Assembly (NCBI GenBank): GCA_016720345.1
Contig: JADKKV010000006.1
Location: forward strand, 248,001-312,000
Origin: Thermomonas sp.
GTDB lineage: Bacteria > Pseudomonadota > Gammaproteobacteria > Xanthomonadales > Xanthomonadaceae
Direction of reading: 5' to 3'
Length of the DNA stretch: 64,000 nucleotides
A model generated the notes under the pieces. It saw nothing but the letters and a program-made list of their open reading frames with translations, was not told where the DNA came from and made no database searches. A program made the position numbers and the translations under genes. Positions 8,780 to 62,197 of this stretch are shown here, piece after piece. How positions within the stretch are numbered: the stretch's first letter is position 1; every line of letters starts with the position of its first letter.

Positions 8780-10417
8780 TTAGTCTGGCCGCGGCCCCTT
8801 GCCCAGGTCCTTGAGGATTTCGCGTGCGGCATTGCGGCCGGGCAGGCCGGTGACGCCACCGCCCGGGTGGGTGCCGGACCCGCACAGGTACAGCTGCCTG
8901 AACGCGCCGCGATAGTTGCCCTGCCCCAGCAGCGGGCGCGCGCTGAACATCTGGTCCAGCCCGAGTGCGCCGTGGAAGATGTCGCCGCCGACCAGGCCGA
9001 TGCGGCGCTCCAGGTCCAGCGGGCTCAATGCCTCGTATCCCAGCACGCTGCGGGCGAAGTTCGGCGCATGCGCATCGACGGTATCGATCATCAGCCTGGC
9101 AACCGTGTCGCGGTGCGCGTCCCAGCCGCCGTCCGCGTCGGCGATCACGGGATTCACCTGTTGGCAGAACAGGCTGGCGACATGCTGGCCGGCGGGCGCC
9201 AGGGTGTCGTCGAGCGTCGAGGAAATCACCACCTCGACAATCGGCTGGCGCGCCCAGCCGGGGTTGTGTGCACGCGACTTGGCATCGAAATAGGCCTGCT
9301 CGAAATACTGCAGCGACGGCCCGATCAGGATCCCGCTGCGGTGGTGCGGCTGCAGCCGGGTGCCGGGCATCGCGGTGAAATCCGGCAGCTCCGACAGCGC
9401 CACGTTCATGCGGAAGGTGCCGGAGCCGCAGCGGTAGCCCTCGATGCGGGTGGCGGTGTCTTCGTCCAGCTGGTTGCGCTCGACCAGCTTCGTGTACAGC
9501 AATTTCGGGTTGAGGTTGCTGGCGATGGTCGCCGCGCGCAGTTCGCGGCCATCGGCGAGGGCGACGCCGACCGCCTTGCCGTTCTCCACCAGGAGCCGGG
9601 CGACTTCGGCATCGGTCTCGATGGCGACGCCACGCGCCTCGCATTCGGCGCGCATCGCCTGGGTGATCGCGCCCATCCCGCCGATCGCGTGGCCCCACGC
9701 GCCGCCCTTGCCGTTGACCTCGCCGAACACGTGGTGCAACAGCACATACGCACTCCCCGGCGTGTACGGGCTGGCGAAATTGCCGACCACCGAATCCCAG
9801 CCCAGCGCGGCCTTCAGCGGTTCGCCCTCGAACCAGCGATCCAGCAGTTCACCGGCGGACTTGGTGAACAGGTCGAGCAGGTCGCGGCGGCCGCGCATGT
9901 CCAGCGTCTTCAACTGCTTCGCCGCCGATGCCGAATTGAGCCAGTCGGCCAGCACGAAGCGGTCGGAAACATTCGGCGGCGTGCGCTGCATCAACTCGCG
10001 CAGCACCACCACGATGCGATCGAGCATCGCGTAGTAGTCCGGCAAGCGCTGGGCATCGCGCGCCGACCACTTCGCCACCTCGGCCTGGGTGTGCTCGCCG
10101 CCGAGCCTGAAGCTGCGGCCATCGGGCAAAGGCAGGAAGTTCGCATAGGACCGTTCCACCACGCGCAAGCCATGCTCGGCAAGGCGCAGGTCGGCGATCA
10201 CCTTCGGGTTGAGCAGGCTGACCGTGTAGCTGGCCAGCGAGTTGCGGAAGCCCGGATGGAATTCCTCGGTGACCGCGGCACCGCCGACGATATGGCGGCG
10301 CTCCAGCACCCGCACCTTCAACCCGGCCGCGGCCAGGTAGGCCGCGCAGACCAGGCCGTTGTGGCCGCCACCGATGACCAGCACATCGTCGTTCCGGGAA
10401 GTCGCCACGCGCGGCAC
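8780..10417 (-). CDS. Phytoene-desaturase-family FAD oxidoreductase (PYROXD2-like)
   Basis: A 545-residue FAD/NAD(P)-binding oxidoreductase of the CrtI-like superfamily. The N-terminal dinucleotide-binding motif VLVIGGGHNGLVCAAYLA (residues 12-29) is followed by VRVLERRHIVGGAAVTEE. The C-terminal FAD motif is LYLCGSGTHPGGGVTGLPGR. Members with this exact C-terminus resemble the eukaryotic PYROXD2 group. No crtB or crtE gene lies nearby, so carotenoid synthesis is not implied. The catalysed reaction is unknown. The gene lies alone on the minus strand, downstream of the TPR-nucleotidyltransferase gene, with 119 bases between them. Confidence 0.85.
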   Translation of the reverse strand: MPRVATSRNDDVLVIGGGHNGLVCAAYLAAAGLKVRVLERRHIVGGAAVTEEFHPGFRNSLASYTVSLLNPKVIADLRLAEHGLRVVERSYANFLPLPDGRSFRLGGEHTQAEVAKWSARDAQRLPDYYAMLDRIVVVLRELMQRTPPNVSDRFVLADWLNSASAAKQLKTLDMRGRRDLLDLFTKSAGELLDRWFEGEPLKAALGWDSVVGNFASPYTPGSAYVLLHHVFGEVNGKGGAWGHAIGGMGAITQAMRAECEARGVAIETDAEVARLLVENGKAVGVALADGRELRAATIASNLNPKLLYTKLVERNQLDEDTATRIEGYRCGSGTFRMNVALSELPDFTAMPGTRLQPHHRSGILIGPSLQYFEQAYFDAKSRAHNPGWARQPIVEVVISSTLDDTLAPAGQHVASLFCQQVNPVIADADGGWDAHRDTVARLMIDTVDAHAPNFARSVLGYEALSPLDLERRIGLVGGDIFHGALGLDQMFSARPLLGQGNYRGAFRQLYLCGSGTHPGGGVTGLPGRNAAREILKDLGKGPRPD

Positions 10418-10536: not shown

Positions 10537-11859
10537 TCAAGCCTGCGACAGTCGCGCTTGCACCCGCTGGACTTCATCCAGTGGCTCCATCGCCAGGATC
10601 TGCCAGCAAAGCGCAGCCGCCATCTCGACCCATCCCTCATGCAATGCGGTCAACAGCGACAACAACGCCCGGTTGAGCGCCGCCGGGCGGCTACCCGGGT
10701 CCAGGGCCGGGCAGTGCATTCCCTTCTGCACGTACTCCCTGGGCACCGCACGTCCCGCAACCGCCTGCGTGGGCTGCGTCCAGTCGTCGCCGTAAAACCA
10801 GCGGAGATACTCGTGCATGGGCTGCGGCACCGGCAGCGGAACCTCGATGCCGGCGCAGGCCACGCTCTCGATGGAGAACGCCGGGGTATCGAACACCAGG
10901 TGATCCGGCGCGCCGAACGATCCCCGCCAGCGCCCGTTGGCCCGGTCCTGCAGCATCAGGTCGATCGGGATATTGCTTGCCTCGTGGACCAGTCCCAGCA
11001 CGCCGATCCCGCCACTGCCGGGGACCAGTTGCCCCTGGCGCGAAAACGGGCGGTAGCCCTGTGCAAAGGCCTGCCTCAACAGTTCGTGGGATACCCGCGC
11101 GTCGATGACGATGTCGATGTCCTTGCGCGCCGCCGGCAGCCCGCCTTCGAACGCGAACATGCGCACCGTGCCGCCCGCCATGCAGGGGTCGCAGTGCAAT
11201 GGCGCCAGCCGCCGCAGGCAATCGACCAGTACGCCACGCCATGTCGCGGCGTCTAATGCCAAGCGTGCGGATGGCGCGCCCGTGATGGGCGGCGGCCAGG
11301 GATTCCCGGCCAGGATCCGCAACGCTTCCAGCGCGTTCGCGCGGCACTCGCCGGACCGTTCCAGGATCCGTTCCAGTTCCGCCATCGCCCGCAGCACCCC
11401 TGGCGTGCGCGCACCCCGGCTGCGTGCCCCTGCAAGCACCTCATGCGCCTCCCGGAGCCGCTCCACCGTCCGCAACATGTAGGAATAGTTGATCGCCGCG
11501 GTTGCGTGCGCCGGCGCCAGTTGCAGTGCATGCGCCATCAGGCGGGCCCCATCCTTGCGCGCACCTTTCCGCCAACTGGCCACGCCGGCATTCACCCAGG
11601 CATCCGCATGTCCCGGATCGATGACGATTGCCTTGCGTGCATTGGCAAGGGCGGCTTCGAAGTCCTCCAATCCCAGCGCGAGCGCCGCCAGGTTCGTCCA
11701 GCACTGCCAGCTGTTCGCTTGGGTGGACGCCTCTGCATACGAACGCTGCGCGCGCTCGCGATCGCCCGCCTGCAACTGCTGAATGCCTTCGGCGGCCATG
11801 TGCGCGCCGAGAGGCAACCTGGACGGCGCGGCGGAACTGATCACGCATGCGGACAACAT
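10537..11859 (-). CDS. TPR protein fused to nucleotidyltransferase-like domain (copy 2)
   Basis: A 440-residue protein: TPR repeats in roughly residues 20-190 (for example CWTNLAALALGLEDFEAALA and ADAWVNAGVASWRKGARKDG), then a nucleotidyltransferase-fold domain from about residue 215 with AGGTVRMFAFEGG and the acidic KDIDIVID. It is a paralogue of the protein at 13995-15326: TPR segments, domain order and the C-terminal Ala/Leu-rich helix line up. The glycine-rich motif is less LicD-like here, so activity is less certain. The ATG at 11859 is supported by the upstream ggaaggcgcc. A 238-base gap holding a decayed RLP fragment separates it from the RLP gene. Confidence 0.72.
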   Translation of the reverse strand: MLSACVISSAAPSRLPLGAHMAAEGIQQLQAGDRERAQRSYAEASTQANSWQCWTNLAALALGLEDFEAALANARKAIVIDPGHADAWVNAGVASWRKGARKDGARLMAHALQLAPAHATAAINYSYMLRTVERLREAHEVLAGARSRGARTPGVLRAMAELERILERSGECRANALEALRILAGNPWPPPITGAPSARLALDAATWRGVLVDCLRRLAPLHCDPCMAGGTVRMFAFEGGLPAARKDIDIVIDARVSHELLRQAFAQGYRPFSRQGQLVPGSGGIGVLGLVHEASNIPIDLMLQDRANGRWRGSFGAPDHLVFDTPAFSIESVACAGIEVPLPVPQPMHEYLRWFYGDDWTQPTQAVAGRAVPREYVQKGMHCPALDPGSRPAALNRALLSLLTALHEGWVEMAAALCWQILAMEPLDEVQRVQARLSQA

Positions 11860-11982
11860 GGCGCCTTCCAGTCTGCGAAGGGACGATCAGCATAGCGAGA
11901 TGCGTCGCCTGCAAGAATCATCCCGCTCATGCGCATGACCAGGTGCAGATGGTGTTGCAGGGCGCGCAGACAGGGCCATTCA

Positions 11983-12082
11983 AACCGCGCGCATGGCCAT
12001 CAACCGACGACGCGACGACCCGAATGGAATCGTTGCTCCCGATTGCCCCACGGTAGCACGCCAAGCCCCGGGTGCCACCGGT
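11983..12082 (-). pseudogene. Decayed C-terminal fragment of the RuBisCO-like gene
   Basis: Read on the minus strand, this gap encodes GGTRGLACYRGAIGSND followed by VVASSVDGHARGL and a stop. The intact RLP upstream ends GGKHPQGLPDYRAAIGSDD, then IVASWVDGHADGL. About two thirds of positions agree after allowing a two-residue deletion. There is no start codon or upstream coding sequence, so this is a relic of a second RLP copy, or a duplication scar left when copy 2 of the TPR gene was placed downstream. Confidence 0.7.
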
Positions 12083-12097
12083 CCTGTTGCCCACGCC

Positions 12098-13333
12098 TCA
12101 GGCCGGCGGCTGGGCGTCGATCGCGGTGCGGAACGCGCGCGCGCCGGCGGGAAGGCCATCGGCATGGCCATCCACCCACGACGCCACGATCAGCATGTAG
12201 TCGTCGCTGCCGATCGCCGCGCGGTAATCCGGCAGCCCTTGCGGATGCTTGCCGCCCTGCAGGATCGGCATCGCCCGCTGCGGACGCCCGAATGGCCATG
12301 CGTCCTCCATGCCGACGCCGTCGGTGGCCCCGTACTCGCCCGAGGTCACGATCCAGTCGGCACCGAACGCCTGGTAGAGGCCGCACAGCACTGCATGTTC
12401 GATCCCCCAGCCCGGGTGGCGGGACAGCAGGTCGCTGAAGGTGTTGTGCGCCAGCAGCGGCATGCGCCGTTCGCGCGCCAGCATCGACAGGGTGCTGAAT
12501 CCCTGCAGCGCCGGCGCCACCAGCGCGCCATCCACCCCCAGCGTCTTGATGATGTCCCAGCGTTCGGCCAGCTCATCGGCCTCGCAGATCAGGTTCGCGA
12601 GGTAGCCCTTGCGCTCGCCAGTGGTGGCGCGCGCCTGGTCACGGGCGGCGACCATCGCCTCGACATGCTGGCGAAATGCGTGGTTGTCCGCGAACACCTG
12701 CAACTCGTCGTCCTTGACCAGGTGATAGCCGGCTTCCAGCACATCGCGATTGAGCCGCGCCATGGTGTCGGCATCCAGGCCCACCGCCGGGCGCATCGAA
12801 CGGCACAGCAAGGGACCCCGCGGGCACTGCAGGCGCGCGCGGATGCCCGCCACCCCGAAGCCCGGCCCGGGCCCGAAATCCTCCGGCAAGGCCAGCGCCT
12901 CCAGCCGGAACCGGGTCAGGAACCCCAGCCGCGGCAATTCGCCGACGACCACGTTGAACAGCTGCGCCGCCTTGCCTGCCACCAGGACGCGGGGAATCGC
13001 CAGCGTCACCGACCACGTTTGCGCCTGCTGCTGCTGTTCCGCATAGACATCGGTGGCCAGCTGGTAGGGTTGCAGCCCGGATGCCGGAGGTTCGGCCTGC
13101 GCCTCGATCGCCAGCACCCGGATGGTCCAGCGTTCCACCTGCTCCGGCGCCACGTAACCACGGATCATGACGGTTCCCGCGCTCTGTTCCATCGCCATCC
13201 CGAGCGCAGTGGCCTCGCCATCGTGCACCGACGTCACGCTGTAGCGCGCCTGCACGTAGTCCGCAGGATCCAGCGCGGGAGACCACCGGAACAGCTCCGG
13301 GTGTTGCGTGCGTGGCAGGTTTCCGGAACTCAT
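12098..13333 (-). CDS. RuBisCO-like protein (type IV, non-carboxylating)
   Basis: A 411-residue protein with the RuBisCO large-subunit fold, seen from the barrel signature segments. The KPKLGL active-site segment is replaced by RPAVGLD, the metal site KDDE is kept (YHLVKDDELQVF), ATTGERKGYLANLI matches the strand after it, PLLAHNTF replaces the HAHRAxH segment, and the phosphate-binding end GGKHPQG...DGHADGLPAGARAF is present. The two active-site lysines (KPK and loop 6) are absent, so carboxylation is not expected; enolase or isomerase chemistry on a phosphorylated sugar, as in other RLPs, is an inference. Its ATG overlaps the cytidylyltransferase stop by three bases, indicating translational coupling. 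Confidence 0.82.
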   Translation of the reverse strand: MSSGNLPRTQHPELFRWSPALDPADYVQARYSVTSVHDGEATALGMAMEQSAGTVMIRGYVAPEQVERWTIRVLAIEAQAEPPASGLQPYQLATDVYAEQQQQAQTWSVTLAIPRVLVAGKAAQLFNVVVGELPRLGFLTRFRLEALALPEDFGPGPGFGVAGIRARLQCPRGPLLCRSMRPAVGLDADTMARLNRDVLEAGYHLVKDDELQVFADNHAFRQHVEAMVAARDQARATTGERKGYLANLICEADELAERWDIIKTLGVDGALVAPALQGFSTLSMLARERRMPLLAHNTFSDLLSRHPGWGIEHAVLCGLYQAFGADWIVTSGEYGATDGVGMEDAWPFGRPQRAMPILQGGKHPQGLPDYRAAIGSDDYMLIVASWVDGHADGLPAGARAFRTAIDAQPPA

Positions 13334-13995
13334 TTCAGGTGGTCCTCCAGTAGTGCCGCATGCCGCCAGTCTTCTGGCGTCGTCAGCTTGATGTTGTGTT
13401 TTTCGCCAGGCACGGCTGCCACTGGCACGCCCGCCTGCAGCGCCAGTTGCAGGGTCGATTGCGGGCGCCGGCCCGCGGCCTCCGCCTGCGCGAACAGGTC
13501 CAGCAGCAGCGCGCGCGCGAACGCCTGCGGCGCCTGGAACACCCCGACCTGGTCGCGGTCGAAGCCCTCCAGCACCAGCCCGCCGCCAATGCGCGCCACC
13601 GGCACCTCGGGATCCAGGAACGCGCCGGCGCACCCGGATCCGCGCGCCGCGGCCAGCACGCCGCGGAACAGCGCGACGCTGGCGAACGGGCGCGCCGCGT
13701 CGTGCACCATGCACCATTCGCCGGTCGCTGCCCGCGCCAGCCGCGCCACGCTGTCATGCCGGCTTCCGCCGCCGGCGATCACCCGGCACCCCGGCAGCAA
13801 TTCCGCCGCGGCATCGACGCGATCCGCAGGCACCGCGACCAGCACCTCGCCGGCCACCTGCAGCGCCTTGTCGGCGATCCAGCACAGCAACGGGCGCCCG
13901 CGCAATTCGAGGAAGCCCTTCGGACCCATGCCCAGGCGCTGGCCGATGCCGGCGGCGGGGACCAGAAACGACACATCGCCGGCGGCCGGCGTCAT
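13330..13995 (-). CDS. IspD/TarI-like cytidylyltransferase
   Basis: A 221-residue CTP:sugar-alcohol-phosphate cytidylyltransferase of the IspD superfamily. It keeps the nucleotide loop FLVPAAGIGQRLG followed by PKGFLELRGRPLL, the CTP-contacting MVHDAARPF, and the C-terminal EKHNIKLTTPEDW with its catalytic lysine. IspD makes CDP-methylerythritol; TarI and related enzymes make CDP-ribitol or CDP-glycerol. No ispF or other MEP-pathway gene is nearby and the partners are an RLP and two LicD-like proteins, so a CDP-polyol for glycan decoration is more likely than isoprenoid synthesis. The start overlaps the TPR gene stop by one base and the stop overlaps the RLP start. Confidence 0.82.
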   Translation of the reverse strand: MTPAAGDVSFLVPAAGIGQRLGMGPKGFLELRGRPLLCWIADKALQVAGEVLVAVPADRVDAAAELLPGCRVIAGGGSRHDSVARLARAATGEWCMVHDAARPFASVALFRGVLAAARGSGCAGAFLDPEVPVARIGGGLVLEGFDRDQVGVFQAPQAFARALLLDLFAQAEAAGRRPQSTLQLALQAGVPVAAVPGEKHNIKLTTPEDWRHAALLEDHLK

Positions 13996-15326
13996 CAGGT
14001 CGCCTGCACGCGTTCAAACCGCGCCAGCATCGCGCCGACCTCGGGAAGCGGCTCACGCGCCTGCACCTGGATGCAAAGCGCGCGCGCCTTCTCCCACTGC
14101 CCGGCTTGCAATGCCTGCAGCAGGCGCAACAGCACCAGCGTCACCGCGCGCGGCAGCGACTCCGGCGTGCGCGACGGGTTCGATACCTGGGTATCGAACC
14201 AGCGGCGATCGAAGCCACGGCTGGTCTCGGTCGCATTCCAGTCCGGGCCGTAGATGGCGTCCAGGTACTGCCGTGGTGGCGCAGGCGCCAGCCAGTCGCG
14301 TCCGCCCCAATGCAAGGGCTGCAGCGGATAGGCCGGCATTTCGCAGGCCAGGTAATCCGGCCAGCCAAGTTCAAAGCGCATCATCCCGTCTTGCTCGCGG
14401 GCAAACATCAGGTCGACGCCGATTCCGCTCTGCTGATGGGTGAATCCCATGACCCATTCGCGCGCCGCGTGGCTGCGTGGATCCTCCGCGCGCAGGACCG
14501 GCCTGAATTCCCCGGCGAACGCCGCCGCGACGGCATCGCGGTCGCTGTCGTACGGCAGCGCGAGGTCAACGTCCTTGTCATGCGGAAATGGACGGCCATC
14601 CCGATGGATCGCCAGCAGGGTCCCGCCGATCAGGTGGAAGGGCACGCCGGCCGCATCCAGCGCATCGCCGGCGGCGAACAGCGCCCGCTGCACGTTGGCG
14701 CTTGCCGCTGCCGCCGCGGCTTCGTTCTCCGCACCAGGCCGGGGTGCGGCGTCGACCTGCGGCTGCAGGTGCGGTCCCAGGCGCGCCAGGGCCTCGAGTG
14801 CCTGCTGCCGCGCGGCCGCGGCGTCCCCATCCAGGCGCGCCTGTTGCGCCAGCGCCTGGCGCAGCCGCCATGCGTCCGGGTTCGCCAGCACCGCCAGTTC
14901 CAGTGTCTTGCGCGCCTCGCCCGGGCGATCGACCAGTTGCAGCATCCGGGCATAGTTCAAGGCCGCGGCCTCCAGGCCCGGATCCAGCGCCAGCGCGCGG
15001 TGCATGGCCATGGCAGCATCGCGCCGCTGGCCCAGCTGCCAGCTGGCAACCCCGAGGTTGACCCACGCATCGACGCTGTCGCGATCCAGCTGCAAGGCCC
15101 GCTGCGCGTTCGCACGCGCGCCGCCGGCATCCCCGAGGGCGATGCCGAGCGCGGCCAGGTTGGACCAGCTCGCGGGATGCGCCATGCCCTGCCGCTGCAG
15201 ATCGCGGTAGCCCTGGTCGGCACGCGCGCGATCGCCGGCATCCAGCGCGTGCGTTGCCCGCACGATCGCCTGCGCCTCCGGTTCCGGGGATCGCGCAACC
15301 CGGACGTCCCACTGCAACTGGCTCAC
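13995..15326 (-). CDS. TPR protein fused to LicD-like nucleotidyltransferase (copy 1)
   Basis: A 443-residue protein. TPR repeats fill about residues 25-190 (SWSNLAALGIALGDAGGARA; AWVNLGVASWQLGQRRDAAM). A nucleotidyltransferase-fold domain follows, with GGTLLAIHRDGRPFPHDKDV and DLALP from about residue 250, matching the G-G-T-L-L...R-x-G...D-x-D-x-D pattern of LicD/fukutin phosphotransferases, which move phosphocholine or polyol phosphate from a CDP carrier to glycans. It heads a coupled run with the cytidylyltransferase and RLP genes (one-base and four-base overlaps). A direct role transferring the CDP-activated group is an inference from this order. Confidence 0.78.
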   Translation of the reverse strand: MSQLQWDVRVARSPEPEAQAIVRATHALDAGDRARADQGYRDLQRQGMAHPASWSNLAALGIALGDAGGARANAQRALQLDRDSVDAWVNLGVASWQLGQRRDAAMAMHRALALDPGLEAAALNYARMLQLVDRPGEARKTLELAVLANPDAWRLRQALAQQARLDGDAAAARQQALEALARLGPHLQPQVDAAPRPGAENEAAAAAASANVQRALFAAGDALDAAGVPFHLIGGTLLAIHRDGRPFPHDKDVDLALPYDSDRDAVAAAFAGEFRPVLRAEDPRSHAAREWVMGFTHQQSGIGVDLMFAREQDGMMRFELGWPDYLACEMPAYPLQPLHWGGRDWLAPAPPRQYLDAIYGPDWNATETSRGFDRRWFDTQVSNPSRTPESLPRAVTLVLLRLLQALQAGQWEKARALCIQVQAREPLPEVGAMLARFERVQAT

Positions 15327-15353
15327 GAATCCCCCTGCTGGATCGACCTGCGT

Positions 15354-15455
15354 TTACCCGCTGCCCGGCGCGGGTTGGCGTGCCGGCAGCAGCAACCGCA
15401 GCGCCGCCGGTTCGGCCGGCGGCACCACGCGCACATCGAAATGCAATGTGGACAT
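15354..15455 (-). CDS. Short ORF resembling the TPR protein N-terminus
   Basis: A 33-codon reading frame upstream of TPR copy 1, starting MSTLHFDVRVVPPAEPAALR and ending with TAA. Its first residues match those of the downstream gene (MSQLQWDVRVARSPEPEAQA), including spacing. It could be a leader peptide, but a truncated relic of another paralogue fits the similarity better. It lies between the groEL terminator and the cluster, so it marks the cluster's upstream end. Expression is not shown by anything in the sequence apart from a weak purine stretch before the ATG. Confidence 0.4.
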   Translation of the reverse strand: MSTLHFDVRVVPPAEPAALRLLLPARQPAPGSG

Positions 15456-40322: not shown

Positions 40323-43300
40323 TCACTGCGACAACGAGCGCTCCATCGATCGTCCTCGAAGAGCCTCATACAACTGCCCCGGCCCCAACAGGATGTCCTT
40401 CAAACCATCGCGCACTCGTTCGGAGCCCAGCGCCTGGCTGCTCATCGTGGTGTGCGCATCAAGCGCATCCATGATTGCGTGCAGTAGCGCATCTTTGAGA
40501 TCTGGGGAGTTGGCAAATTGCTCCTTGCTGTTGCTCGCAGCTTGCTGGGCCAACGTACTGTTCTCCAGCAACTTGCCCTTCAAGACTCCATTTACATAGA
40601 CGAGCTGATCGTCCTCCGTCAGCTGGCCTTCGAACAAGCCATTCACCTTGTCGATGATCTCGGCAAGATAAGCGTGCTCCTTGTCCTGCACGTGGCCACT
40701 TCCTACGGCATCCATGGGCGGCAACGTCAGCGCTTCCCCCGCTCCGAGATAGAGTGGATTCGCACTGCCCCGGCGCAGGGTGTGATGCGTGAGCACCACT
40801 TTCGACAGATCCACTGTTTCGCGTTCCCTGCCGAACTCGAGCAGCGGCAACAAGCGCTTGTAAAAGATGAAGCGCTTTTCGATGTCGGTATTGCCGTAGT
40901 CGAACATCTGCGAGAGGAACGCGTAGAGCCGCACGTACGCACCCAAGTCCCCCTTGAACAGCACCAGTGCGTCCAGGGTTACCTTCGCCGCCTTGATCGC
41001 GTCATCGTCGTGCGCAGCCTCTGCGGCCGCCTTTGCCTGCTGGGCGACCCGATAGCGCTTCAGCAGGCGGTCGGCGACGGGTGCGATCGCAGCGCTGAGT
41101 TGGGCTTGCGTACCGGCCGGGTCCGTCTCCACCTTGGCGACGCGATCGACCTCGAAGTGGTCGTAGTGGCCGCTGGCGTCAAGCTTGGCGCGCAGATCAA
41201 AGATCAGGTTCGGATCGGTGGTGGCTTCCAGTGCGGCGGTTTCGTAATACGTTTGGAACGCCTTCAGGACTTCCGCCGGATCGTTGACGAAGTCCAGGAT
41301 GTACGTGGTGTCCTTTCCGGGGTGCGCGCGGTTGAGACGGGACAGGGTCTGCACCGCCTGAATCCCGCCGAGCAGCTTGTCCACGTACATCCCGCACAAC
41401 AGTGGCTGGTCGAAGCCGGTCTGGAACTTGTTGGCTACCAGCAGCAGGTGGAATTCCGATTTGGCAAAGGCCTCGCGGATATCGCCCTTCAAGTTTGGGT
41501 TGAGCGGCTTGCTGGTTTCGGTCACGGGCTCGGGGTAGCTCTCGGGGTCGTTGACCTCACCGGAGAACGCGACGAGCACGCCGAGGGGATAGCCCTGGCG
41601 TTCGATATAGCCACGGATCGCCTTTTGCCAGCGCACCGCTTCCTTGCGCGAACCCACCACCACCATGGCCTTCGCCTTGCCATCCAGCAGCGGCTGCACG
41701 TTCTCGCGGTAGTGCTCCACCACGATTTGCACTTTGGCAGCGATGTTGTATGCATGCAGGCGAACCCACTGCATGATGCCTTTCATGGCCGTGGACCGCT
41801 CCACCGCCGTCTGGTCGAACTCCTGGCCTTCGTGTGCCAACCGGAACGCCAGGTCGTACGGCGTGTAATTGAGTAGCACGTCGAGGATGAAACCCTCCTC
41901 GATCGCCTGGCGCATCGAATAGACATGGAAAGGCTGCGGCAGGCCATCCGCGCCCGGTCGGCCGAATAGTTCCAAAGTCTTGGACTTGGGCGTGGCGGTA
42001 AAGGCGAGGTAGGTCAGGCCTTCGTTCGCACCGGCGCGGGCCGCCATGCCCGCCGCCAGCAACGCTTCGGTATCGACTTCGCCGCCGTCCTGCAGCTCTG
42101 CCCATTCCTGGGTGCTCAGCAACTGCTTTAGCTTGGCGGCGGACTCCCCCGTCTGCGAGCTATGCGCTTCGTCGGCAATGACTGCAAAGCGCTTGCCCTC
42201 TGTCGCCGCAAGTTCCTGCACGGCCTGCAACGCAAACGGGAAGGTCTGGATGGTGCAGACGATGATCTTCTTGCCATCCTTCAGCGCCTGCCCCAGCTCC
42301 GCGCTCTTGCTGCCGGAACCGCCAGTGATGGTGGCCACCACGCCGGTGGTGCGCTCGAAGTCGAAGATGGCTTCCTGTAGCTGCGCATCCAGCACGTTGC
42401 GGTCGGACACCACCAGCACACTGTCGAACAGCTTGCGGTTCTCGGCATCGTGCAGGTCGGCCAGGAAGTGCGCGCTCCAGGCGATGGAGTTGGTCTTGCC
42501 GGAGCCGGCGGAATGCTGGATCAGGTAGCGCTGCCCTGCTCCATTCGCCAGGACATCGGCGACCAGTTTCCGGGTGGCATCCAGTTGGTGGTAGCGCGGG
42601 AAGATCACGCTGGCCAGTTGCTTGCGCTCATCGCGCTTGCCGATCAGATAGCGACCCAGGATTTCCAGCCAGCTGTCGCGCGCCCAGACCTGTTCCCACA
42701 GGTAGCTGGTGGCAAAGCCTTCGGGATTCGGTGCATTGCCCGCGCCGCCTGCGTTGCCGCGATTGAACGGCAGGAAACGCGTGGCTGCGCCTTGCAGGCG
42801 CGTGGTCATCATCACCTCGGCCTGGCTCACTGCGAAATGCACCAGCGCCCCGCCCGGGAAACCCAGCAACGGCTCCGCACGCCCGCCCTTCGGTTGCGGA
42901 TGGCGGTCGAAGCGGTACTGGTCCACCGCATCGCCCACGGACTGGGTGAAGTCGGATTTGAGTTCCGCCGTGGCCACGGCAATGCCGTTGACGAACAGCA
43001 CCAGATCCACGCAGTCCTGAGGGTTGTTAAACGAATGCCGGATCTGCCGCACCACACGCAGGTGATTCGCCGCGTAGTGCTGCTGGATGACCGGGTTCAT
43101 CGCCAGCGCCGGCTTGAACTGCACCACGGACAGCGGCGCCTTCAGCCCCACCATTTCCACGCCACGGCGCAGCACGTCCAGGGTGCCTCGCTCGTCCAAG
43201 CTCTTGCGCACGCGGGCGGCCACGCGCTCGCCGAGTTGCGGGCCGTGCGTCTTGATGAGTGCCTGCCAGCTGGCCTGCTGCGTCTGTTCGATCCATGCCA

Positions 43301-43430
43301 GCAAATCCGGCAGAAACAGCGCATGTTCACGGTCGTAGTGCGCAGCGTCGCCCTCTGCATACAGCCATCCGTTGGCAGCCAGGTGCTCGCAAATTTCGCG
43401 CTCGAAGTGGTGTTCGCGGTGCAGGTTCAT
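40323..43430 (-). CDS. hsdR: Type I restriction endonuclease subunit HsdR
   Basis: The motor and nuclease subunit of the type I restriction-modification system, 1035 residues. The N-terminal nuclease domain has LVLFVNGIAVATAELKSDFT with the PD-(D/E)xK elements. The helicase domains show IQHSAGSGKTNSIAW (Walker A, near residue 310), VIADEAHSSQ (DEAx box), LAFTATPKSKTLELFG, and VANKFQTGFDQPLLC plus QTLSRLNRAHPGK (motifs V and VI). It starts at 43430, overlapping the HEPN gene stop by four bases, so it is transcribed behind that TA-like pair and not directly behind hsdS. Confidence 0.96.
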   Translation of the reverse strand: MNLHREHHFEREICEHLAANGWLYAEGDAAHYDREHALFLPDLLAWIEQTQQASWQALIKTHGPQLGERVAARVRKSLDERGTLDVLRRGVEMVGLKAPLSVVQFKPALAMNPVIQQHYAANHLRVVRQIRHSFNNPQDCVDLVLFVNGIAVATAELKSDFTQSVGDAVDQYRFDRHPQPKGGRAEPLLGFPGGALVHFAVSQAEVMMTTRLQGAATRFLPFNRGNAGGAGNAPNPEGFATSYLWEQVWARDSWLEILGRYLIGKRDERKQLASVIFPRYHQLDATRKLVADVLANGAGQRYLIQHSAGSGKTNSIAWSAHFLADLHDAENRKLFDSVLVVSDRNVLDAQLQEAIFDFERTTGVVATITGGSGSKSAELGQALKDGKKIIVCTIQTFPFALQAVQELAATEGKRFAVIADEAHSSQTGESAAKLKQLLSTQEWAELQDGGEVDTEALLAAGMAARAGANEGLTYLAFTATPKSKTLELFGRPGADGLPQPFHVYSMRQAIEEGFILDVLLNYTPYDLAFRLAHEGQEFDQTAVERSTAMKGIMQWVRLHAYNIAAKVQIVVEHYRENVQPLLDGKAKAMVVVGSRKEAVRWQKAIRGYIERQGYPLGVLVAFSGEVNDPESYPEPVTETSKPLNPNLKGDIREAFAKSEFHLLLVANKFQTGFDQPLLCGMYVDKLLGGIQAVQTLSRLNRAHPGKDTTYILDFVNDPAEVLKAFQTYYETAALEATTDPNLIFDLRAKLDASGHYDHFEVDRVAKVETDPAGTQAQLSAAIAPVADRLLKRYRVAQQAKAAAEAAHDDDAIKAAKVTLDALVLFKGDLGAYVRLYAFLSQMFDYGNTDIEKRFIFYKRLLPLLEFGRERETVDLSKVVLTHHTLRRGSANPLYLGAGEALTLPPMDAVGSGHVQDKEHAYLAEIIDKVNGLFEGQLTEDDQLVYVNGVLKGKLLENSTLAQQAASNSKEQFANSPDLKDALLHAIMDALDAHTTMSSQALGSERVRDGLKDILLGPGQLYEALRGRSMERSLSQ

Positions 43431-43876
43431 GCCTCGGCCACCAGTTCGGGATGGGATGCACGCAGCCACGCGTCGGTGTGCGCCAGCAGCTGCTCTGCCT
43501 CTTCGATGCAAGCGGCCAGCACGCCATCGGCAATGGGGTCGCCCACGTAGTCGTTGATGTTGCGCTGCTTGCGCAGGCCATCCAGCACGATCACCTTCGC
43601 CGTGGGCACGCCCATGCTCAGGGTGAGGCACTGGATGGCGGTCTGGTGATGGCCCGGCTGGCTGGTGGAGGTGCGGTAGCCATTCGCCCACAGGCCCAGC
43701 ATCGCGCACTGCATGATGCACTTATAGGCCGCATCGAACCGGTTGTCGTTGCCGATCGCGTCCACCCGTGCATCCGCCAGGTTGCGCCGGGCCGCAGCCA
43801 GCAACTTCAGGACCGAAGCGCGGTCAGCGGCGTGCTGTTGCAGCTGGCGCGTTCCCAGCAAGTTCTGCAAGGTCAT
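43427..43876 (-). CDS. HEPN-like protein (candidate toxin)
   Basis: A 149-residue, mainly helical protein with features of the HEPN superfamily: SVLKLLAAARRNLADARVDA, then RFDAAYKCIMQCAMLGLWAN, and the candidate motif LRKQRNINDYVGD where classical HepT-type toxins have Rx4-6H. The histidine appears replaced by aspartate or asparagine, so RNase activity is uncertain. It sits between the MNT-type nucleotidyltransferase gene (53-base overlap) and hsdR (four-base overlap). HEPN/MNT pairs form toxin-antitoxin systems in which MNT adds AMP to the HEPN toxin. Confidence 0.72.
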   Translation of the reverse strand: MTLQNLLGTRQLQQHAADRASVLKLLAAARRNLADARVDAIGNDNRFDAAYKCIMQCAMLGLWANGYRTSTSQPGHHQTAIQCLTLSMGVPTAKVIVLDGLRKQRNINDYVGDPIADGVLAACIEEAEQLLAHTDAWLRASHPELVAEA

Positions 43877-44453
43877 CCTTATCCCCCATCAGGAACACCA
43901 CGGGCTTTCCCGTTATCTCGCGCACGAAGGCCTCGCCCCGCCCCGCACGCTGCACGAATTCGGCCGGTGAATACAACACCGGATTGATCTCGCGGCCCAG
44001 CGTCTGTTGCGCCGGATACAGCGCCTGTACCAGTTCCGCGAATCCCGCCTCGCCCACCACCAACAAGTCGATGTCGCTGCCACTCGATTGCGCGCCGCGC
44101 GCCACTGAGCCGAACACCAGCGCCACTTGGATCTTCGATGCCAGTGGCGACAGCGCCTCGCGCAGCACCGCCGCCGCGCCATGGGTCTTGCGGAAGATGG
44201 CCGCCAGGTCTTCGAACATCGGACACGCCCGGTTCGCCTGGTAACGCACCTGGTTGCCGTGTTCGCTGCGCAATACCAGGCCGGCTTCGGTCAGCTTGTC
44301 CAGTTCACGCATCAGGGTGCCGGCGTTGCTGGCGGTGAGGCGCGCCAGCTCGCGCAGGTGGAAGCCTTCCCCCGGCTGCAGCAGCAGCACGGCCAGCGCA
44401 CGTTGGCGGGTGCCGGCGAACAGCAGGTCCATGAGGGCGGTGGTGTTGCTCAT
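43824..44453 (-). CDS. HTH-MNT nucleotidyltransferase (candidate antitoxin)
   Basis: A 209-residue protein from the ATG at 44453. The N-terminal winged helix (residues 8-85: FAGTRQRALAVLLLQPGEGF; LRELARLTASNAGTLMRELD) is followed by a minimal nucleotidyltransferase domain with ALVFGSVARGAQSSGSDIDL, the complete GSxARG...SDxD motif. Such HTH-MNT proteins AMPylate HEPN toxins and repress their own operon. It is the first gene of the minus-strand unit MNT-HEPN-hsdR. An inverted repeat just upstream of the start is a likely operator. Confidence 0.85.
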   Translation of the reverse strand: MSNTTALMDLLFAGTRQRALAVLLLQPGEGFHLRELARLTASNAGTLMRELDKLTEAGLVLRSEHGNQVRYQANRACPMFEDLAAIFRKTHGAAAVLREALSPLASKIQVALVFGSVARGAQSSGSDIDLLVVGEAGFAELVQALYPAQQTLGREINPVLYSPAEFVQRAGRGEAFVREITGKPVVFLMGDKDDLAELAGNAPAATARR

Positions 44454-44464
44454 TTGGCAACGAA

Positions 44465-44483
44465 TGTTGCATATCCGGCAACA
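44465..44483 (-). promoter_or_regulatory. Putative operator upstream of the MNT gene
   Basis: A perfect six-base inverted repeat TGTTGC-N7-GCAACA lies 12 bases before the start of the MNT gene. A second half-site GCAAC at 44456-44460 precedes it. Placement suggests autoregulation by the winged-helix domain of that protein. Confidence 0.55.
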
Positions 44484-44591
44484 CTCCTGCAAGCGTCTTG
44501 GTTGGACAGGGGCAAGCAGAGGAGTTCCACAGCACTGGTCCGGCTACGCATTAGAATGACGAAGCCAGCCTTGCCTGGAGGTACCTCGCTC

Positions 44592-45278
44592 ATGACCAAG
44601 ACCGATATCCGCCACCAGCCGGCCTACTCCGTTGCCGAAGCTGCCCGCTACCTGAAAGTAGCGCCGGCAACGTTGCGTTCGTGGGTCGTCGGTCGCCCCT
44701 ATCCGACTGGCGCAGGCACCGCGCATTCCAAGCCGGTTATTCGGGCAGCCGGGACTCCGCCGCCCACGCTGTCCTTCTGGAACTTGATCGAGGCACATGT
44801 GTTGCGTTCGCTGCGCACCGACCATGGTGTGCCCATGGATGCGCTGCGCCGCGCAGTCGCCTATGCGGAGAAGAGCCTCCAGATCGAGCGCCTGCTGCTT
44901 AGCCCCGAGCTGCGCACCGACGCCGGCAAGCTCCTGCTGGAACGCTACGGCGAATTGATCGAACTATCCGCATCCGGGCAGATCGCAATGCGCAGCCTGC
45001 TCAATTCGCATCTTGCACGTGTGGAATGGGACGAGTGGAAGTTCCCAGTGCGTCTGTATCCCTTCACCTCGAGCGGCGTGGGTAGCGGCGATAAGCGCCC
45101 GGTCGCGATCGCCGCCAACATCGCCTTCGGCCGCCCCGTCCTGGTCCATGGCGGCATCACCACCGCAACCATCGCCGAACGCATTGATGCGGGTGAGAGC
45201 ATCGCCGATTTGGCAGATGACTACGATGTGCTTCCCGAAGACATCGAGGAAGCTGTGCTGTACGAGCACGCGGCCTGA
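44592..45278 (+). CDS. DUF433 antitoxin with MerR-like HTH
   Basis: A 228-residue protein. The N-terminal helix-turn-helix (YSVAEAARYLKVAPATLRSW) resembles MerR-type DNA-binding domains, and the C-terminal DUF433 domain contains RPVLVHGGITTATIAERIDA, ending VLPEDIEEAVLYEHAA. DUF433 proteins are antitoxins of PIN-like (VapC-type) toxins, and one follows nine bases downstream. The ATG at 44592 has ggagg ten bases upstream; another in-frame ATG at 44556 lacks one. The gene is on the plus strand, opposite to the restriction genes around it. Confidence 0.87.
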   Translation: MTKTDIRHQPAYSVAEAARYLKVAPATLRSWVVGRPYPTGAGTAHSKPVIRAAGTPPPTLSFWNLIEAHVLRSLRTDHGVPMDALRRAVAYAEKSLQIERLLLSPELRTDAGKLLLERYGELIELSASGQIAMRSLLNSHLARVEWDEWKFPVRLYPFTSSGVGSGDKRPVAIAANIAFGRPVLVHGGITTATIAERIDAGESIADLADDYDVLPEDIEEAVLYEHAA

Positions 45279-45287
45279 GGCCCCTGC

Positions 45288-45713
45288 TTGAATCCGGTTT
45301 TTTTTACCGACCGTGATCTCGGCAAGAAATTTCCCGGGATCCTGCGCAACGCGGGCCTGGTGGTCGAACGCCATGCGGATCATTTCGAGCAGGATTGCCC
45401 GGACCCGGACTGGCTCAGCGAGGTCGGGCGTCGTGGATGGATCGCGATCACTCACGACGGGCGCATTCGTTACAAGCCCAATGAGTTGGCGGCTGTCATC
45501 GAGCATCGCGTTGCGCTCCTGGTGATGATCGGCGCCGCACCTTACCCGCAACTGGCGCACGCCTTCGTCAACACGAAGCACCGCGTCCTGCACTTCATCG
45601 AACGTCACGCGGCGCCCTACATCGCCAAGGTCTACCGCCCTGCTGCCCCTGATGTGGAGAAGAATCCGGCCTCAGCCGGGCGAATCGAACTCTGGTACCC
45701 CACAAAGCGTTGA
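45288..45713 (+). CDS. PIN-like toxin partner of the DUF433 protein
   Basis: A 141-residue PIN-like RNase-fold protein: FFTDRDLGKKFPGILRNAGL gives the first acidic residues, DPDWLSEVGRRGWIAITHDG gives the second acidic group and the threonine/aspartate motif, and a basic helix follows. This is the VapC45/PIN-like type usually paired with DUF433 antitoxins. It ends at 45713, convergent with hsdS and separated from it by 23 bases. Confidence 0.85.
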   Translation: MNPVFFTDRDLGKKFPGILRNAGLVVERHADHFEQDCPDPDWLSEVGRRGWIAITHDGRIRYKPNELAAVIEHRVALLVMIGAAPYPQLAHAFVNTKHRVLHFIERHAAPYIAKVYRPAAPDVEKNPASAGRIELWYPTKR

Positions 45714-45736
45714 GCCGCCAGCATCGCGCTCGATGC

Positions 45737-47092
45737 TCATGCGGCTTGGGCTTCCACTTGGCCGCGCACGTCGATCTTGCCGGTGACGGCGGCGGCGATC
45801 AGGGCGCTGCGGCGCTCTGTCAGCAAGGCGATTGTTCGTTGCGCATCCATGCTCAAGTCATCGATCTTCTTCACCCGCATAGAAAGCAGATGCGCAAGCT
45901 CTTGCTGCTCGCGAACGGGAGGTGTGGTAATCCAGAAGTTGATTGCATGACCTATGTTGAATTGCTCCTGCGCGGCGCCGTATTGAACCACTTCCACCTG
46001 ATAGCGAACCATTCGACTGTTCATCGCGAAACAAAGCCAGTCTGAGTCGAAGGCGCCTCTCCGTATGAGCATCACAGACGCGCAGTTACCGCCCTCGCAT
46101 TCCTCAGTAACGACAGCCGTCACTCCAGGAGCACCAACCCGAACCGTCAACAGATCCTTTGCGTTCAAGCGAGTCTTGGGCTGCATATCGCTGTCGCCAG
46201 GAGCTATTCGCCGACAATTTTCAAGTGAAATGTTTCCTTCCCGTATATCCCCGCCATAGATGAAGGGCAGTCCTTCATCAGAAACGTAATCGCTCGGGTT
46301 GACCACGATGCCGACCGTGATGGCTGGCGACAATGTCTTGAGCCGGCGCATCTCCCAATGCGCCGGCACCTCCCCGAGCCACGCAATGCCGGAGTCCTTC
46401 ATCGGCACACCGGGATCAAGGCCGCGGGTGACGGCGTGGGAGATGGTGGCCTGGCGCTTCTCGGCCAGCAGCGCCAGCAGCTTTTCCTGCTCGGCGATCA
46501 GGGCGTCGATCTTGGCGGTTTCGCGATCGAGGAACGTCGCAATCTGGACCTGGTCGGCGTGCGACGGGAACACCCCCCTCTCGTCGAAGTACTGCGACTG
46601 ATCCAGATTTTGGATTCCAGACGTTTGCTTGATGGCAACGATGTTGACACCACGGGCGTACGCGGCGGCGTGCTGATACATCCAGAACCTGGGAGCCATC
46701 CCTTCCGCCAAAGTCACCTTGGCCACGAAATTTGAACAGACCGCGGGTTCGTCACGGTCGTAAAGCACAACTTGACCGACCGGCTGCCGCTCACCCCCAC
46801 CTGATTTTTCGAGGAGTAGATCGCCTCTTTGCAAAGTTCTTCCGACCCGCTCGGATTGCGTCACGGAACGTTGCGTCGGCACTACTCCATCAACCACCAG
46901 TCGCGCTCGATCGAAGTCTGCGACGCGCACACAATCGATATCGCTGCTGTCACCCTTGGGCTCCTCGCCCCAGATACCGTTCTTGCAGCACGTGATCGAC
47001 GCCTTCAACCGATCAACCTGCCAGTGCGCGGGAACACTACCGAGCCACGGCACCCCGCTCTCCTTGTACTGGTGATACCTCGGCAAACTCAT
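45737..47092 (-). CDS. hsdS: Type I specificity subunit HsdS
   Basis: The DNA-recognition subunit, 451 residues, with two target-recognition domains. Each begins with the same repeated segment: ESGVPWLGSVPAHWQVDRLK (residues 11-30) and DSGIAWLGEVPAHWEMRRLK (about residue 235). The central conserved helix FLDRETAKIDALIAEQEKLL is repeated near the C-terminus as LLSMRVKKIDDLSMDAQRT. Both domains are full length, so a bipartite target is expected. The start overlaps the abi stop by four bases; the two are coupled. Confidence 0.95.
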   Translation of the reverse strand: MSLPRYHQYKESGVPWLGSVPAHWQVDRLKASITCCKNGIWGEEPKGDSSDIDCVRVADFDRARLVVDGVVPTQRSVTQSERVGRTLQRGDLLLEKSGGGERQPVGQVVLYDRDEPAVCSNFVAKVTLAEGMAPRFWMYQHAAAYARGVNIVAIKQTSGIQNLDQSQYFDERGVFPSHADQVQIATFLDRETAKIDALIAEQEKLLALLAEKRQATISHAVTRGLDPGVPMKDSGIAWLGEVPAHWEMRRLKTLSPAITVGIVVNPSDYVSDEGLPFIYGGDIREGNISLENCRRIAPGDSDMQPKTRLNAKDLLTVRVGAPGVTAVVTEECEGGNCASVMLIRRGAFDSDWLCFAMNSRMVRYQVEVVQYGAAQEQFNIGHAINFWITTPPVREQQELAHLLSMRVKKIDDLSMDAQRTIALLTERRSALIAAAVTGKIDVRGQVEAQAA

Positions 47093-48009
47093 TCCGCCAA
47101 CTCCCGCCACATCTCAAACGACCGCCAATCCGGCGGGAAGCCCATTTCGTTCCAAAGATCCGGACGCTCCAGCACCAGCGCGCGAATCCGCTGCCTCCAT
47201 TCGGACGCCGGGCTGACCCGCGCCATCAGCCAGAGCAGCAGTACCAAGGTGTTGTAGATGCGGTCCTTCGGGCCGGTGGTGGTTTGCAGTTGTGCGCGCA
47301 ATGCCTCGGGCTTCTTCGGCAATGCCAGCGTGCCCACCACCAGTTTCCGGTTCCACAGCCGCGAGTGATGCGCGCACACGTTGCGCACGTAGGCCAGGTG
47401 CTCGACGAACGAACAGAAAGGTGTTTCCGCCAATCCGAAAGGTTCGGCGATCTGCTGGCGGATCTTGTGGTCGCGGATGGAGCGCAGCCACTTGGAGAGG
47501 TCGCCCAGCGACAGGACCTCGCACAGTGCCCAGACAGGCGGCTCCTCGTCGCGATCCAGGTAGCGGGACAGGAAGATTTCGCTACGGTCTGCGTAAAGCG
47601 TTTCCAGCTTTGCGAGCAACCTGGCATGACGCTCGTTGAACAACCTTTCCTGCCGATGCGCGGCGGGCCCGGCAGCATGACCAAGCACAAAGGCCCAGCG
47701 CGTGCGCAAGGAAACCTCGATGCGCTCGATCGCGTCATTCAATTCGAGCCTGAGGCGTCGGTCGAAATCGTAGAGTTCGATCACCGCATCGAAATCAGTC
47801 CCCGGGCGGAAGGCATGATCACCATTGCCGCCTGGTAGCTCATCGCGCATCCAGTAGCCGCGCAGTCGGTAGTAGTTCAAGTGACCCAGGTAGTGGCGCG
47901 CGCGCACCTCGTCTGCGATGCGCATGCCGCGACGCTGCAACTGCGCGACTTGTTCGTCAATCGTGAGCGCCGGCTTCTCGGGCACCTTGCGCGGCGTGGT
48001 CACGCGCAA
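47089..48009 (-). CDS. Abi family protein (AbiD/AbiF type)
   Basis: A 306-residue member of the Abi_2 family, known for phage abortive infection in lactococci. It contains LNYYRLRGYWMRDELPG, LYDFDRRLRLELNDAIERIE and the HEPN-like catalytic segment FVEHLAYVRNVCAHHSRLWN with the RxxxxH motif, followed by NTLVLLLWLMAR. These proteins are probably RNases that stop growth on infection. The gene is inserted between hsdM and hsdS in the same direction and overlaps hsdS by four bases, so its level would follow the restriction system. Confidence 0.92.
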   Translation of the reverse strand: MRVTTPRKVPEKPALTIDEQVAQLQRRGMRIADEVRARHYLGHLNYYRLRGYWMRDELPGGNGDHAFRPGTDFDAVIELYDFDRRLRLELNDAIERIEVSLRTRWAFVLGHAAGPAAHRQERLFNERHARLLAKLETLYADRSEIFLSRYLDRDEEPPVWALCEVLSLGDLSKWLRSIRDHKIRQQIAEPFGLAETPFCSFVEHLAYVRNVCAHHSRLWNRKLVVGTLALPKKPEALRAQLQTTTGPKDRIYNTLVLLLWLMARVSPASEWRQRIRALVLERPDLWNEMGFPPDWRSFEMWRELAE

Positions 48010-48087
48010 ACCCCGGAAAAGAAAAACCCGCCAAAATGCGCATGAAGACCGGAGTCCACAGAGGCGAGGCGGGCATGATTGAGACGA

Positions 48088-48115
48088 ATGATAGCACTGC
48101 CTTGGACCGGTGCAA
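48088..48115 (-). promoter_or_regulatory. Putative promoter for abi-hsdS
   Basis: Read on the minus strand: -35 TTGCAC (48115-48110), 16 bases, -10 TATCAT (48093-48088), about 80 bases before the abi start and within the 151-base gap after hsdM. It would allow abi-hsdS to be expressed apart from hsdM. Confidence 0.5.
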
Positions 48116-48160
48116 CCTCGGCGCCACCCGCCCTCATGGGGGCATTCAGGCGAACCTGAC

Positions 48161-61336: not shown

Positions 61337-62197
61337 CTACCCCGAAATCACGGACGGTTGTAAAAGGGTGGAAAACTTCAAATCCTGCCTAGCGACCCTT
61401 CGCCGCATTCTCGGGTTATGGAACCGCTCGATGTATTCGAACACATCCGCCCTTGCGGCATCGAGCGTCTGGTACGTCATGCGGTGGATCCGCTCGCGCT
61501 TGAGTACACCAAAGAAGCCTTCGCAGGCCGCGTTGTCACCGCAGTGGCCCACCGCGCTCATCGAGCACACCAGTCCGTTGGCGGCCAGGTAACGCTGGTA
61601 GTCGCCACTGCGGAACTGGCTGCCGCGATCCGAATGCAAGACCACTTGGTGGCGACCTTGGCGCTGCCAGACGCCCATTTGCACGGCGCGGATCACCATT
61701 TGCCGGTCCTGCCGGTGGTGCATCGACCACCCCACGACCCGCTGGTCGAACAGATCCAGCACGATGCACAGGTACAGCTTGCCCTGCCGGGTCTTGATCT
61801 CGGTAATGTCGGTGACCCATTTGGTCTCCGGCTCCAGCGCGGTGAAGTCCCGCTCCAGCAGGTTGCGCACGCCCGGCGGCGTCAGTGCCGGCTGGCCGCG
61901 TTGGCCACGCCGCTTCGGCCGCGGCCAGCCCTGCAGGCCGTTGGCCGCCATCAGGCGCGCCACCCGGTTCAGGCTGGCTGACTCGCCTACCTCGGCCAGG
62001 TCTTCCCGCATGCGACCGGCACCCAGTGCGCCCCGACTGTCCTCATGCAGCTCGCGGATCCGGCTGAGCAAGCGCCTGTTGTCGCGCTCACGGGCACCGG
62101 GCAATCGCTTGCTCCAGTCGTAGTAACCACTGGCCGATACCCGCAGGCAGCGGCACATCAGGCGAACCGGGAACTCATCGCGGCAACGATCGATCAC
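61337..62197 (-). CDS. IS3 transposase OrfB
   Basis: The catalytic part of the IS3 transposase, 286 residues, starting at a GTG (62197). The DDE integrase core is present: [20 protein letters not shown] (first Asp), [20 protein letters not shown] (second Asp), and [18 protein letters not shown] (Glu). The N-terminal HTH_21 part ([16 protein letters not shown]) is typical. In IS3 elements OrfAB is made by a -1 ribosomal frameshift; the orfA stop at 62206 lies just upstream, and the orfB frame stays open back into orfA. The TAG stop lies within the left repeat. Confidence 0.95.

Follow-up and report, generated by a model that had tools for sequence, protein, structure and literature searches.

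We analyzed a gene cluster encoding a RuBisCO-like protein (RLP) in Thermomonas sp. (assembly GCA_016720345.1, contig JADKKV010000006.1; genome G000, 2.66 Mb). The stretch examined, hereafter the window (G000:C6:248001-312000), comprises 64,000 nucleotides, and window coordinates are counted from its first letter. Upstream of the RLP gene lie genes for an IspD-like cytidylyltransferase and for a protein that joins tetratricopeptide repeats (TPR) to a LicD domain (TPR-LicD_A); a second TPR-LicD gene (TPR-LicD_B) follows. The features of the locus are as follows:

17200-15548, minus strand: groEL, upstream of the cluster
15326-13995, minus strand: TPR-LicD_A, 443 amino acids (aa), GTG start; N-terminal TPR and C-terminal LicD/FKRP-type nucleotidyltransferase-fold domain; proposed transferase of an X-phosphate (see below)
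13995-13330, minus strand: IspD-like cytidylyltransferase, 221 aa; PF01128
13333-12098, minus strand: RLP, 411 aa; PF00016 RuBisCO_large, E 5.3e-23
11991-12055, minus strand: decayed fragment duplicating part of the RLP 3' end, located between the RLP and TPR-LicD_B genes
11859-10537, minus strand: TPR-LicD_B, 440 aa; paralogue of TPR-LicD_A, DxD retained (KDIDI)
10417-8780, minus strand: FAD oxidoreductase, after TPR-LicD_B

A conserved three-gene core

In the window, TPR-LicD_A overlaps the IspD-like gene by one base, and the latter overlaps the RLP gene by four bases (ATGA). The coupled cluster with a second TPR-LicD downstream that had been described in the first-pass annotation is thus present, except that its boundary was placed at 15455 and the first gene actually begins at 15326. 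The gap of 238 bases between RLP and TPR-LicD_B contains the decayed fragment, which is identical to RLP bases 1108-1172 at 52 of 65 positions and is also matched in a protein search with the RLP query (residues 365-396, 59% identity). Since a decayed copy of the RLP 3' end is found here and TPR-LicD_B sits upstream of TPR-LicD_A in locus L015 and genome G225, unlike in the window, the order A-IspD-RLP-B looks like a rearranged duplicate.

Six further loci with close relatives of this RLP were detected by a pattern scan that covered one genome per species, and a genome search added G225 and G270, resulting in a total of nine genomes that carry the RLP clade. Five of them belong to one genus (G000, G225, G270, L015 and L016; the last two are titled Lysobacterales and correspond, with identical positions, to G676 and G677). 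The other four are Parachitinimonas caeni (L017) and Andreprevotia lacus (L019), both Chitinibacteraceae, and the metagenome-assembled genomes of a gammaproteobacterium (L018) and of a member of Methylococcaceae (L020), the RLP of the latter being split across two contigs. In all nine, the IspD-like gene lies directly upstream of RLP and the TGA of the former overlaps the ATG of the latter by the same four bases; the linkage of these two genes is therefore more than chance. A TPR-LicD gene precedes the pair in eight of the nine, with an overlap of 1-8 bases between it and the IspD-like gene at the six junctions tested (taking the nearest possible start). The adjacency to IspD-like and LicD-like genes for which the first-pass annotation had proposed a search thus holds for RLPs of this clade in other genomes as well. 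The expected co-occurrence of four genes was borne out in part: a second TPR-LicD beside the core was observed only in the window, G225, L015 and G270 (L016 and L018 are interrupted by contig ends), and the conserved unit is the three-gene core of TPR-LicD, IspD-like and RLP.

Within the genus sample, RLP was found in 5 of 25 genomes. The same five contain IspD-like matches with E values of 6.9e-106 or better, while the remaining 20 reach 1.8e-23 or weaker, and identical 5-of-25 sets would arise by chance with a probability of 1.9e-5 (uncorrected for kinship). LicD domains were detected in all five, plus G107 and G199. The pairwise identities of RLP and IspD-like proteins are correlated (r 0.81, 28 pairs; a value this high arose in 24 of 5000 permutations). 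Ten comparisons gave dN/dS, the ratio of nonsynonymous to synonymous divergence, of 0.14-0.45, dS reaching 1.4. In wider samples the clade is rare and patchy, as expected of an accessory trait. It was present in 3 of 296 genomes of the family sample (the own genome, G225 and G270; the other six of nine matches are 26-28% identical) and in 1 of 369 of the class sample (the own genome; 33 match at 1e-20). Further samples, known members included, gave 1 of 10 (G663 itself), 1 of 237 (G666 itself) and 2 of 399 (G663 and G665 themselves). Neither IspD-like nor LicD matches were found at the six RLP homologue loci of the family sample or at 29 homologue loci of the class sample (of 35 non-own matches; flanks of about 1.5 kb). 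Viral contigs yielded no relative (327 pattern-matching stretches, none confirmed), and inspection by eye of the open reading frame lists of the loci revealed no further common neighbour; loci L053-L059 were left out of the analysis. Carriage on plasmids as mobile elements was also considered and rejected, as all 364 matching records fall below 60% identity (best listed, 30.5%) and represent other RLPs.

A distinct RLP clade with an altered active site

The predicted structure has a RuBisCO fold across the full RLP length, which together with the KDDE metal site places the protein in the RLP superfamily. The RLP clade is monophyletic (support 100/100) in the phylogenetic tree, from which the partial L020 and nine homologues (L010-L013, L033, L040, L050-L052) were omitted; NCBIfam labels were obtained for 20 homologues. 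A grouping with MtnW (2zvi, 2oek and 4nas) was rejected by the approximately unbiased test (p-AU 3.5e-6), the MtnW NCBIfam models score far below their cut-offs (104.7 of 409 bits and 82.7 of 513.6 bits), and the position of N123 holds Glu or Asp instead of the Lys that serves as the MtnW criterion. Groupings with 3qfw, L037 and L042 and with Photo RLPs (2qyg/1ykw, L026, L027 and L030) were each rejected at p-AU 0.0014; the 3qfw group is presumably DeepYkr, a 5-methylthioribulose 1-phosphate (MTRu-1-P) isomerase. Placement on the superfamily tree, another step put forward in the first-pass annotation, therefore sets the RLP outside the MtnW and 3qfw groups. For the three-gene core, this placement and the recurrence in other genomes are the reverse of the two outcomes that had been named there as speaking against the proposal.

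Grouping with OiaX-like RLPs (3nwr, L025, L031 and L008) was not clearly rejected (p-AU 0.053), and the substrate of IspD itself is a C4 polyol phosphate. Both would suit an OiaX-kind decarboxylase, by which a phosphorylated keto-acid would lose CO2 to give a C4 ketose phosphate, similar in shape to 2-C-methylerythritol 4-phosphate (MEP), for activation by the IspD-like enzyme; published RLPs decarboxylate or transcarboxylate 3-oxo-isoapionate-4-phosphate, according to the accessible part of one report (PMC6302742). However, the OiaX NCBIfam model reaches 112.9 bits against a cut-off of 700, and both OiaX-like rows compared (3nwr and L025) retain K175, H327 and K334, which leaves this function quite unlikely for the clade. 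The available text of published studies places assigned RLP roles in apiose catabolism and in methionine/methylthioadenosine (MTA) salvage; for a Photo RLP, it describes a part in stress response and sulfur oxidation (PMC5893883, PMC6302742). These precedents and the shared superfamily would allow a salvage enzyme (MtnW enolase or MTRu-1-P isomerase) whose operon position is incidental, but this is highly improbable in view of the two rejected groupings, the low MtnW scores and the same neighbour in nine of nine genomes from several families.

The metal site is retained in the clade: the equivalents of Lys201 and Glu204 are kept in all eight clade rows and that of Asp203 in seven. The K175 position is Arg in these eight rows and Lys in all 35 others (we take K175, K177, K334 and S379 to follow spinach numbering). 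Across the eight rows, K177 is replaced by A, K334 by A, T, Q or D and S379 by Q, so the residues of RuBisCO forms I-III are absent, and G403/G404 are changed to Ala/Ser. That the RLP has lost the carboxylase lysines and kept KDDE, as first noted from the window, holds with Arg at K175 and no Lys at K334. Loop 6 is shortened, residues 332-350 of the model are poorly predicted, and 23 sites are invariant specifically in the clade. Pattern matching did not locate T65, W66, H294, R295 and H298; H296 was equated with H294 by reading of the alignment.

Some of these replacements would also suit a pseudoenzyme or allosteric subunit that binds a sugar phosphate and, instead of catalysing a reaction, adjusts the activity of the cytidylyltransferase/LicD pair or acts as its scaffold. 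The changes at K175, G403/G404 and S379 in eight of eight rows, the shortened and poorly predicted loop 6 and a KDCE variant in G270 point in that direction, and the strict four-base coupling would suit a fixed stoichiometry. The conserved metal ligands, on the other hand, as well as the 23 clade-specific invariant sites and purifying selection, suggest a conserved active centre, and we consider a non-catalytic RLP rather unlikely.

The cytidylyltransferase and TPR-LicD proteins

The IspD-like protein belongs to the IspD/TarI superfamily (PF01128, 117.3 bits against a cut-off of 27, E 1.1e-33), and the conserved Arg and Lys of its N-terminal part (R20 and K26) and Lys of its C-terminal part (K203) are invariant in all nine proteins. 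It falls below the cut-offs of both the IspD equivalog TIGR00453 (120.9 against 181.3 bits) and the TarI ribitol-5-phosphate cytidylyltransferase model NF001183 (53.7 against 166 bits). The DT-[LI]-K and TDEA-type motifs (the latter read as the [TV]-[DT]-[DE]-[EA] region), which we assume to line the alcohol pocket of IspD, occur in the four usable canonical rows (L001, L060, L063 and L064) and in none of the nine IspD-like rows; L061 and L062 were left out of this comparison, as was L065, which is identical with the L020 IspD-like gene. The absence of these motifs, along with the low ribitol-5-phosphate score, suggests that the alcohol pocket is changed, and the altered motifs argue against MEP as the substrate. 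A role as the sole MEP-pathway enzyme of the host was ruled out: a separate canonical IspD is present in G000 (G000:C5:87494-88159) and in five of the six hosts fetched. In G666, the best IspD match is the RLP-linked gene itself.

These features also bear on another scheme, in which the product would be that of known LicD systems (e.g. ribitol phosphate), the reductase would be encoded elsewhere, and the RLP would be an upstream pentulose-phosphate isomerase or epimerase. TarI/ISPD enzymes act on ribitol-5-phosphate, supplied in many bacteria by a linked reductase, as stated in the available part of PMC4873967, and an IspD-SDR fusion occurs in G199 of the same genus. Nevertheless, such a scheme is unlikely given the ribitol-5-phosphate model score, the missing canonical motifs and the lack of a reductase in the cassette (the rest of G000 was not searched for reductases).

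TPR-LicD_A contains Pfam TPR and LicD domains. In a profile comparison with PDB, human FKRP is the sole significant match to the LicD domain, and the structure model matches it too. The cassette proteins share an invariant DKDxD motif and one more invariant Asp; by these motifs and its FKRP-like fold, TPR-LicD_A belongs with the LicD/FKRP transferases. TPR-LicD_B, about 33% identical to A, has only a Pfam TPR match and none to LicD; it keeps DxD but reads ARKDID where A has HDKDVD. The Methylococcaceae TPR-LicD (L020, 7430-9340, plus strand) has an N-terminal SEC-C motif and many TPR matches.

A proposed CDP-donor pathway

From the observed linkage, conserved overlap, co-occurrence, clade, residues and predicted folds, we lean towards a cassette that makes a CDP-activated sugar- or polyol-phosphate (CDP-X) and transfers X, the RLP acting on a phosphorylated precursor. 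First, the RLP would enolise, isomerise or decarboxylate a phosphorylated C4-C5 keto-sugar to X-phosphate, using Mg2+ on carbamylated Lys207 with Asp209/Glu210, and with Glu132/Arg181 in place of RuBisCO Asn123/Lys175. Second, judging from its family, the IspD-like enzyme would convert CTP and X-phosphate into CDP-X. Third, TPR-LicD would move X-phosphate from CDP-X onto an acceptor glycan or protein held by its TPR part, releasing CMP; this step is modelled on CpsC and FKRP and follows from architecture, motifs and fold. That a new superfamily clade, with Arg/Glu replacing Lys175/Asn123, makes a phosphorylated sugar for a new CDP-donor with which TPR-LicD decorates a surface glycan or protein has, in our estimate, about an even chance of being right.

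The first-pass annotation had proposed the same sequence of RLP, cytidylyltransferase and TPR-LicD, and its reading is supported in part. Its CDP-donor/LicD logic has precedents in the accessible text of two publications (PMC4873967, PMC11666461), while "polyol" is unproven, since no cassette gene is a reductase, and we infer the step order and the RLP reaction. CpsC (Cps7C), the capsule transition transferase of Actinobacillus pleuropneumoniae, is likewise composed of an N-terminal TPR and a C-terminal LicD/FKRP-like domain, uses a CDP-polyol (CDP-glycerol) and, in the available part of that report, needs two Asp (PMC11666461). These probably have counterparts in the cassette TPR-LicD. CpsC differs in its CDP-glycerol donor and capsule locus, whereas the cassette operon contains an RLP and an activator of the IspD type. 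According to the accessible text of PMC4873967, LicD proteins work with CDP conjugates and are in some cases fused to ISPD; ISPD with FKTN/FKRP in the ribitol-phosphate pathway, and the bacterial TarI/Acs1-type enzymes, likewise pair an IspD-type cytidylyltransferase with a LicD-type transferase. In those systems, however, the polyol phosphate comes from a reductase, which in bacteria is often a fusion partner, whereas the cassette has an RLP. Compared with the form IV RLPs (Photo, NonPhoto/OiaX, DeepYkr and MtnW), the cassette RLP shares the full RuBisCO fold and KDDE, and its Glu at N123 with Photo RLPs and row L024; it differs in forming its own clade, in Arg at K175 and Ala at G403, and in its gene neighbourhood. 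What is known is thus the CDP-donor and LicD transfer, and what is new is the RLP clade at the core.

In the openly available literature searched, no "rubisco-like protein" paper also mentioned LicD or cytidylyltransferase, and no such operon appeared in the titles or abstract beginnings among the matches listed. One paper, in its accessible part, names rubisco-like and ispD as separate genes of the MTA shunt and the MEP pathway; another of those listed concerns an RLP and biotin. The combination in one operon of an RLP with CTP-activating-type and glycan-attaching-type enzymes may point to a function of the RuBisCO family that has not been described. If the proposal is true, RLPs would gain a biosynthetic role in supplying a nucleotide-activated precursor; this much-studied superfamily would have a new solution to its active site, and the CDP-sugar would probably be new as well. 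Two named strains carry the cassette, which is small, so RLP function is directly testable with three purified proteins.

LicD relatives were also found in five genomes outside the clade, and in four of them a nucleotidyltransferase gene of the PF01467 or IspD type is joined to the LicD gene, adjoins it or lies about 5 kb away. G199, which belongs to the same genus and lacks RLP, carries flagellin next to a LicD-like gene with a weak NCBIfam cholinephosphotransferase match (none in Pfam at 1e-5); an IspD-SDR fusion and a DegT aminotransferase complete the group (L113, 5286-10677), which is possibly a flagellin-modification island. The usual arrangement is of this kind, the polyol phosphate being supplied by a reductase. 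Because G199 pairs its LicD-like gene with an IspD-reductase fusion and the RLP operon has an RLP and no reductase, the RLP may, by analogy, occupy the place where the reductase usually stands and could have taken over precursor supply. Three relatives come from the class sample: G615 (L100, 7865-9406, plus strand) has LicD fused to a PF01467 cytidylyltransferase-like domain, G520 has it beside a PF01467 nucleotidyltransferase, and in G347 the LicD gene adjoins a PF04464 glycerophosphotransferase, with a PF01467 gene about 5 kb away whose best model is glycerol-3-phosphate cytidylyltransferase, below cut-off.

Several observations weigh against the proposed CDP-X pathway. In the G270 RLP (L007, 1504-2727, minus strand), KDDE is changed to KDCE and the N123 position is occupied by Asp; because K175, Lys in every non-clade row, is also lost, the RLP may lack the usual catalysis. 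No reductase or kinase is found among the cassette genes, and L018 has no upstream TPR-LicD (its contig ends about 330 bases past RLP, leaving the downstream side unseen). The LicD score of the window TPR-LicD_A is 20.1 bits, under the Pfam cut-off of 22.6 that is reached by the A copies of L015 (27.6), L019 (22.6) and L020 (34.6); L017 (18.0) is also under it, and the G225 copy (L021) has no Pfam LicD match. The L019 IspD-like protein (9339-10001, plus strand) lacks the Asp and Arg of VHDxARP, having VWSVAAP where others have D-x-ARP. Outside the clade, the PF01467 genes of G615 and G520 score best, below cut-off, on a heptose adenylyltransferase and not a cytidylyltransferase model. G107 keeps a lone TPR-LicD (L112, 7341-8642, plus strand) between groEL and an FAD oxidoreductase; neither RLP nor an IspD-like gene was matched in the 16 kb fetched. 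Finally, the G199 LicD (31% over 111 residues) and IspD (29%) are distant from those of the window, so the reductase comparison is an analogy.

As for the acceptor, the gene after RLP in L019 encodes a TPR protein whose GT9 match is just over cut-off, and ADP-heptose genes lie near the cassette in L017; both are at most hints of surface glycans. Flagellin was ruled out as the acceptor in the genus, as it occurs in none of the five RLP-positive genomes (two of them 80-86% complete) and in 9 of the 20 RLP-negative ones.

Elsewhere in the window, a type I restriction-modification region of lower GC content (0.605-0.648) occupies 40323-49912 on the minus strand. It includes HsdR-like (40323-43721) and HsdM (48161-49912) genes, with a nucleotidyltransferase-domain protein (43824-44492) and an Abi_2 protein (47089-48009) inside it. 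A transposase with an integrase core and HTH_21, which we take to be IS3-like, is located at 61337-62197 on the minus strand.

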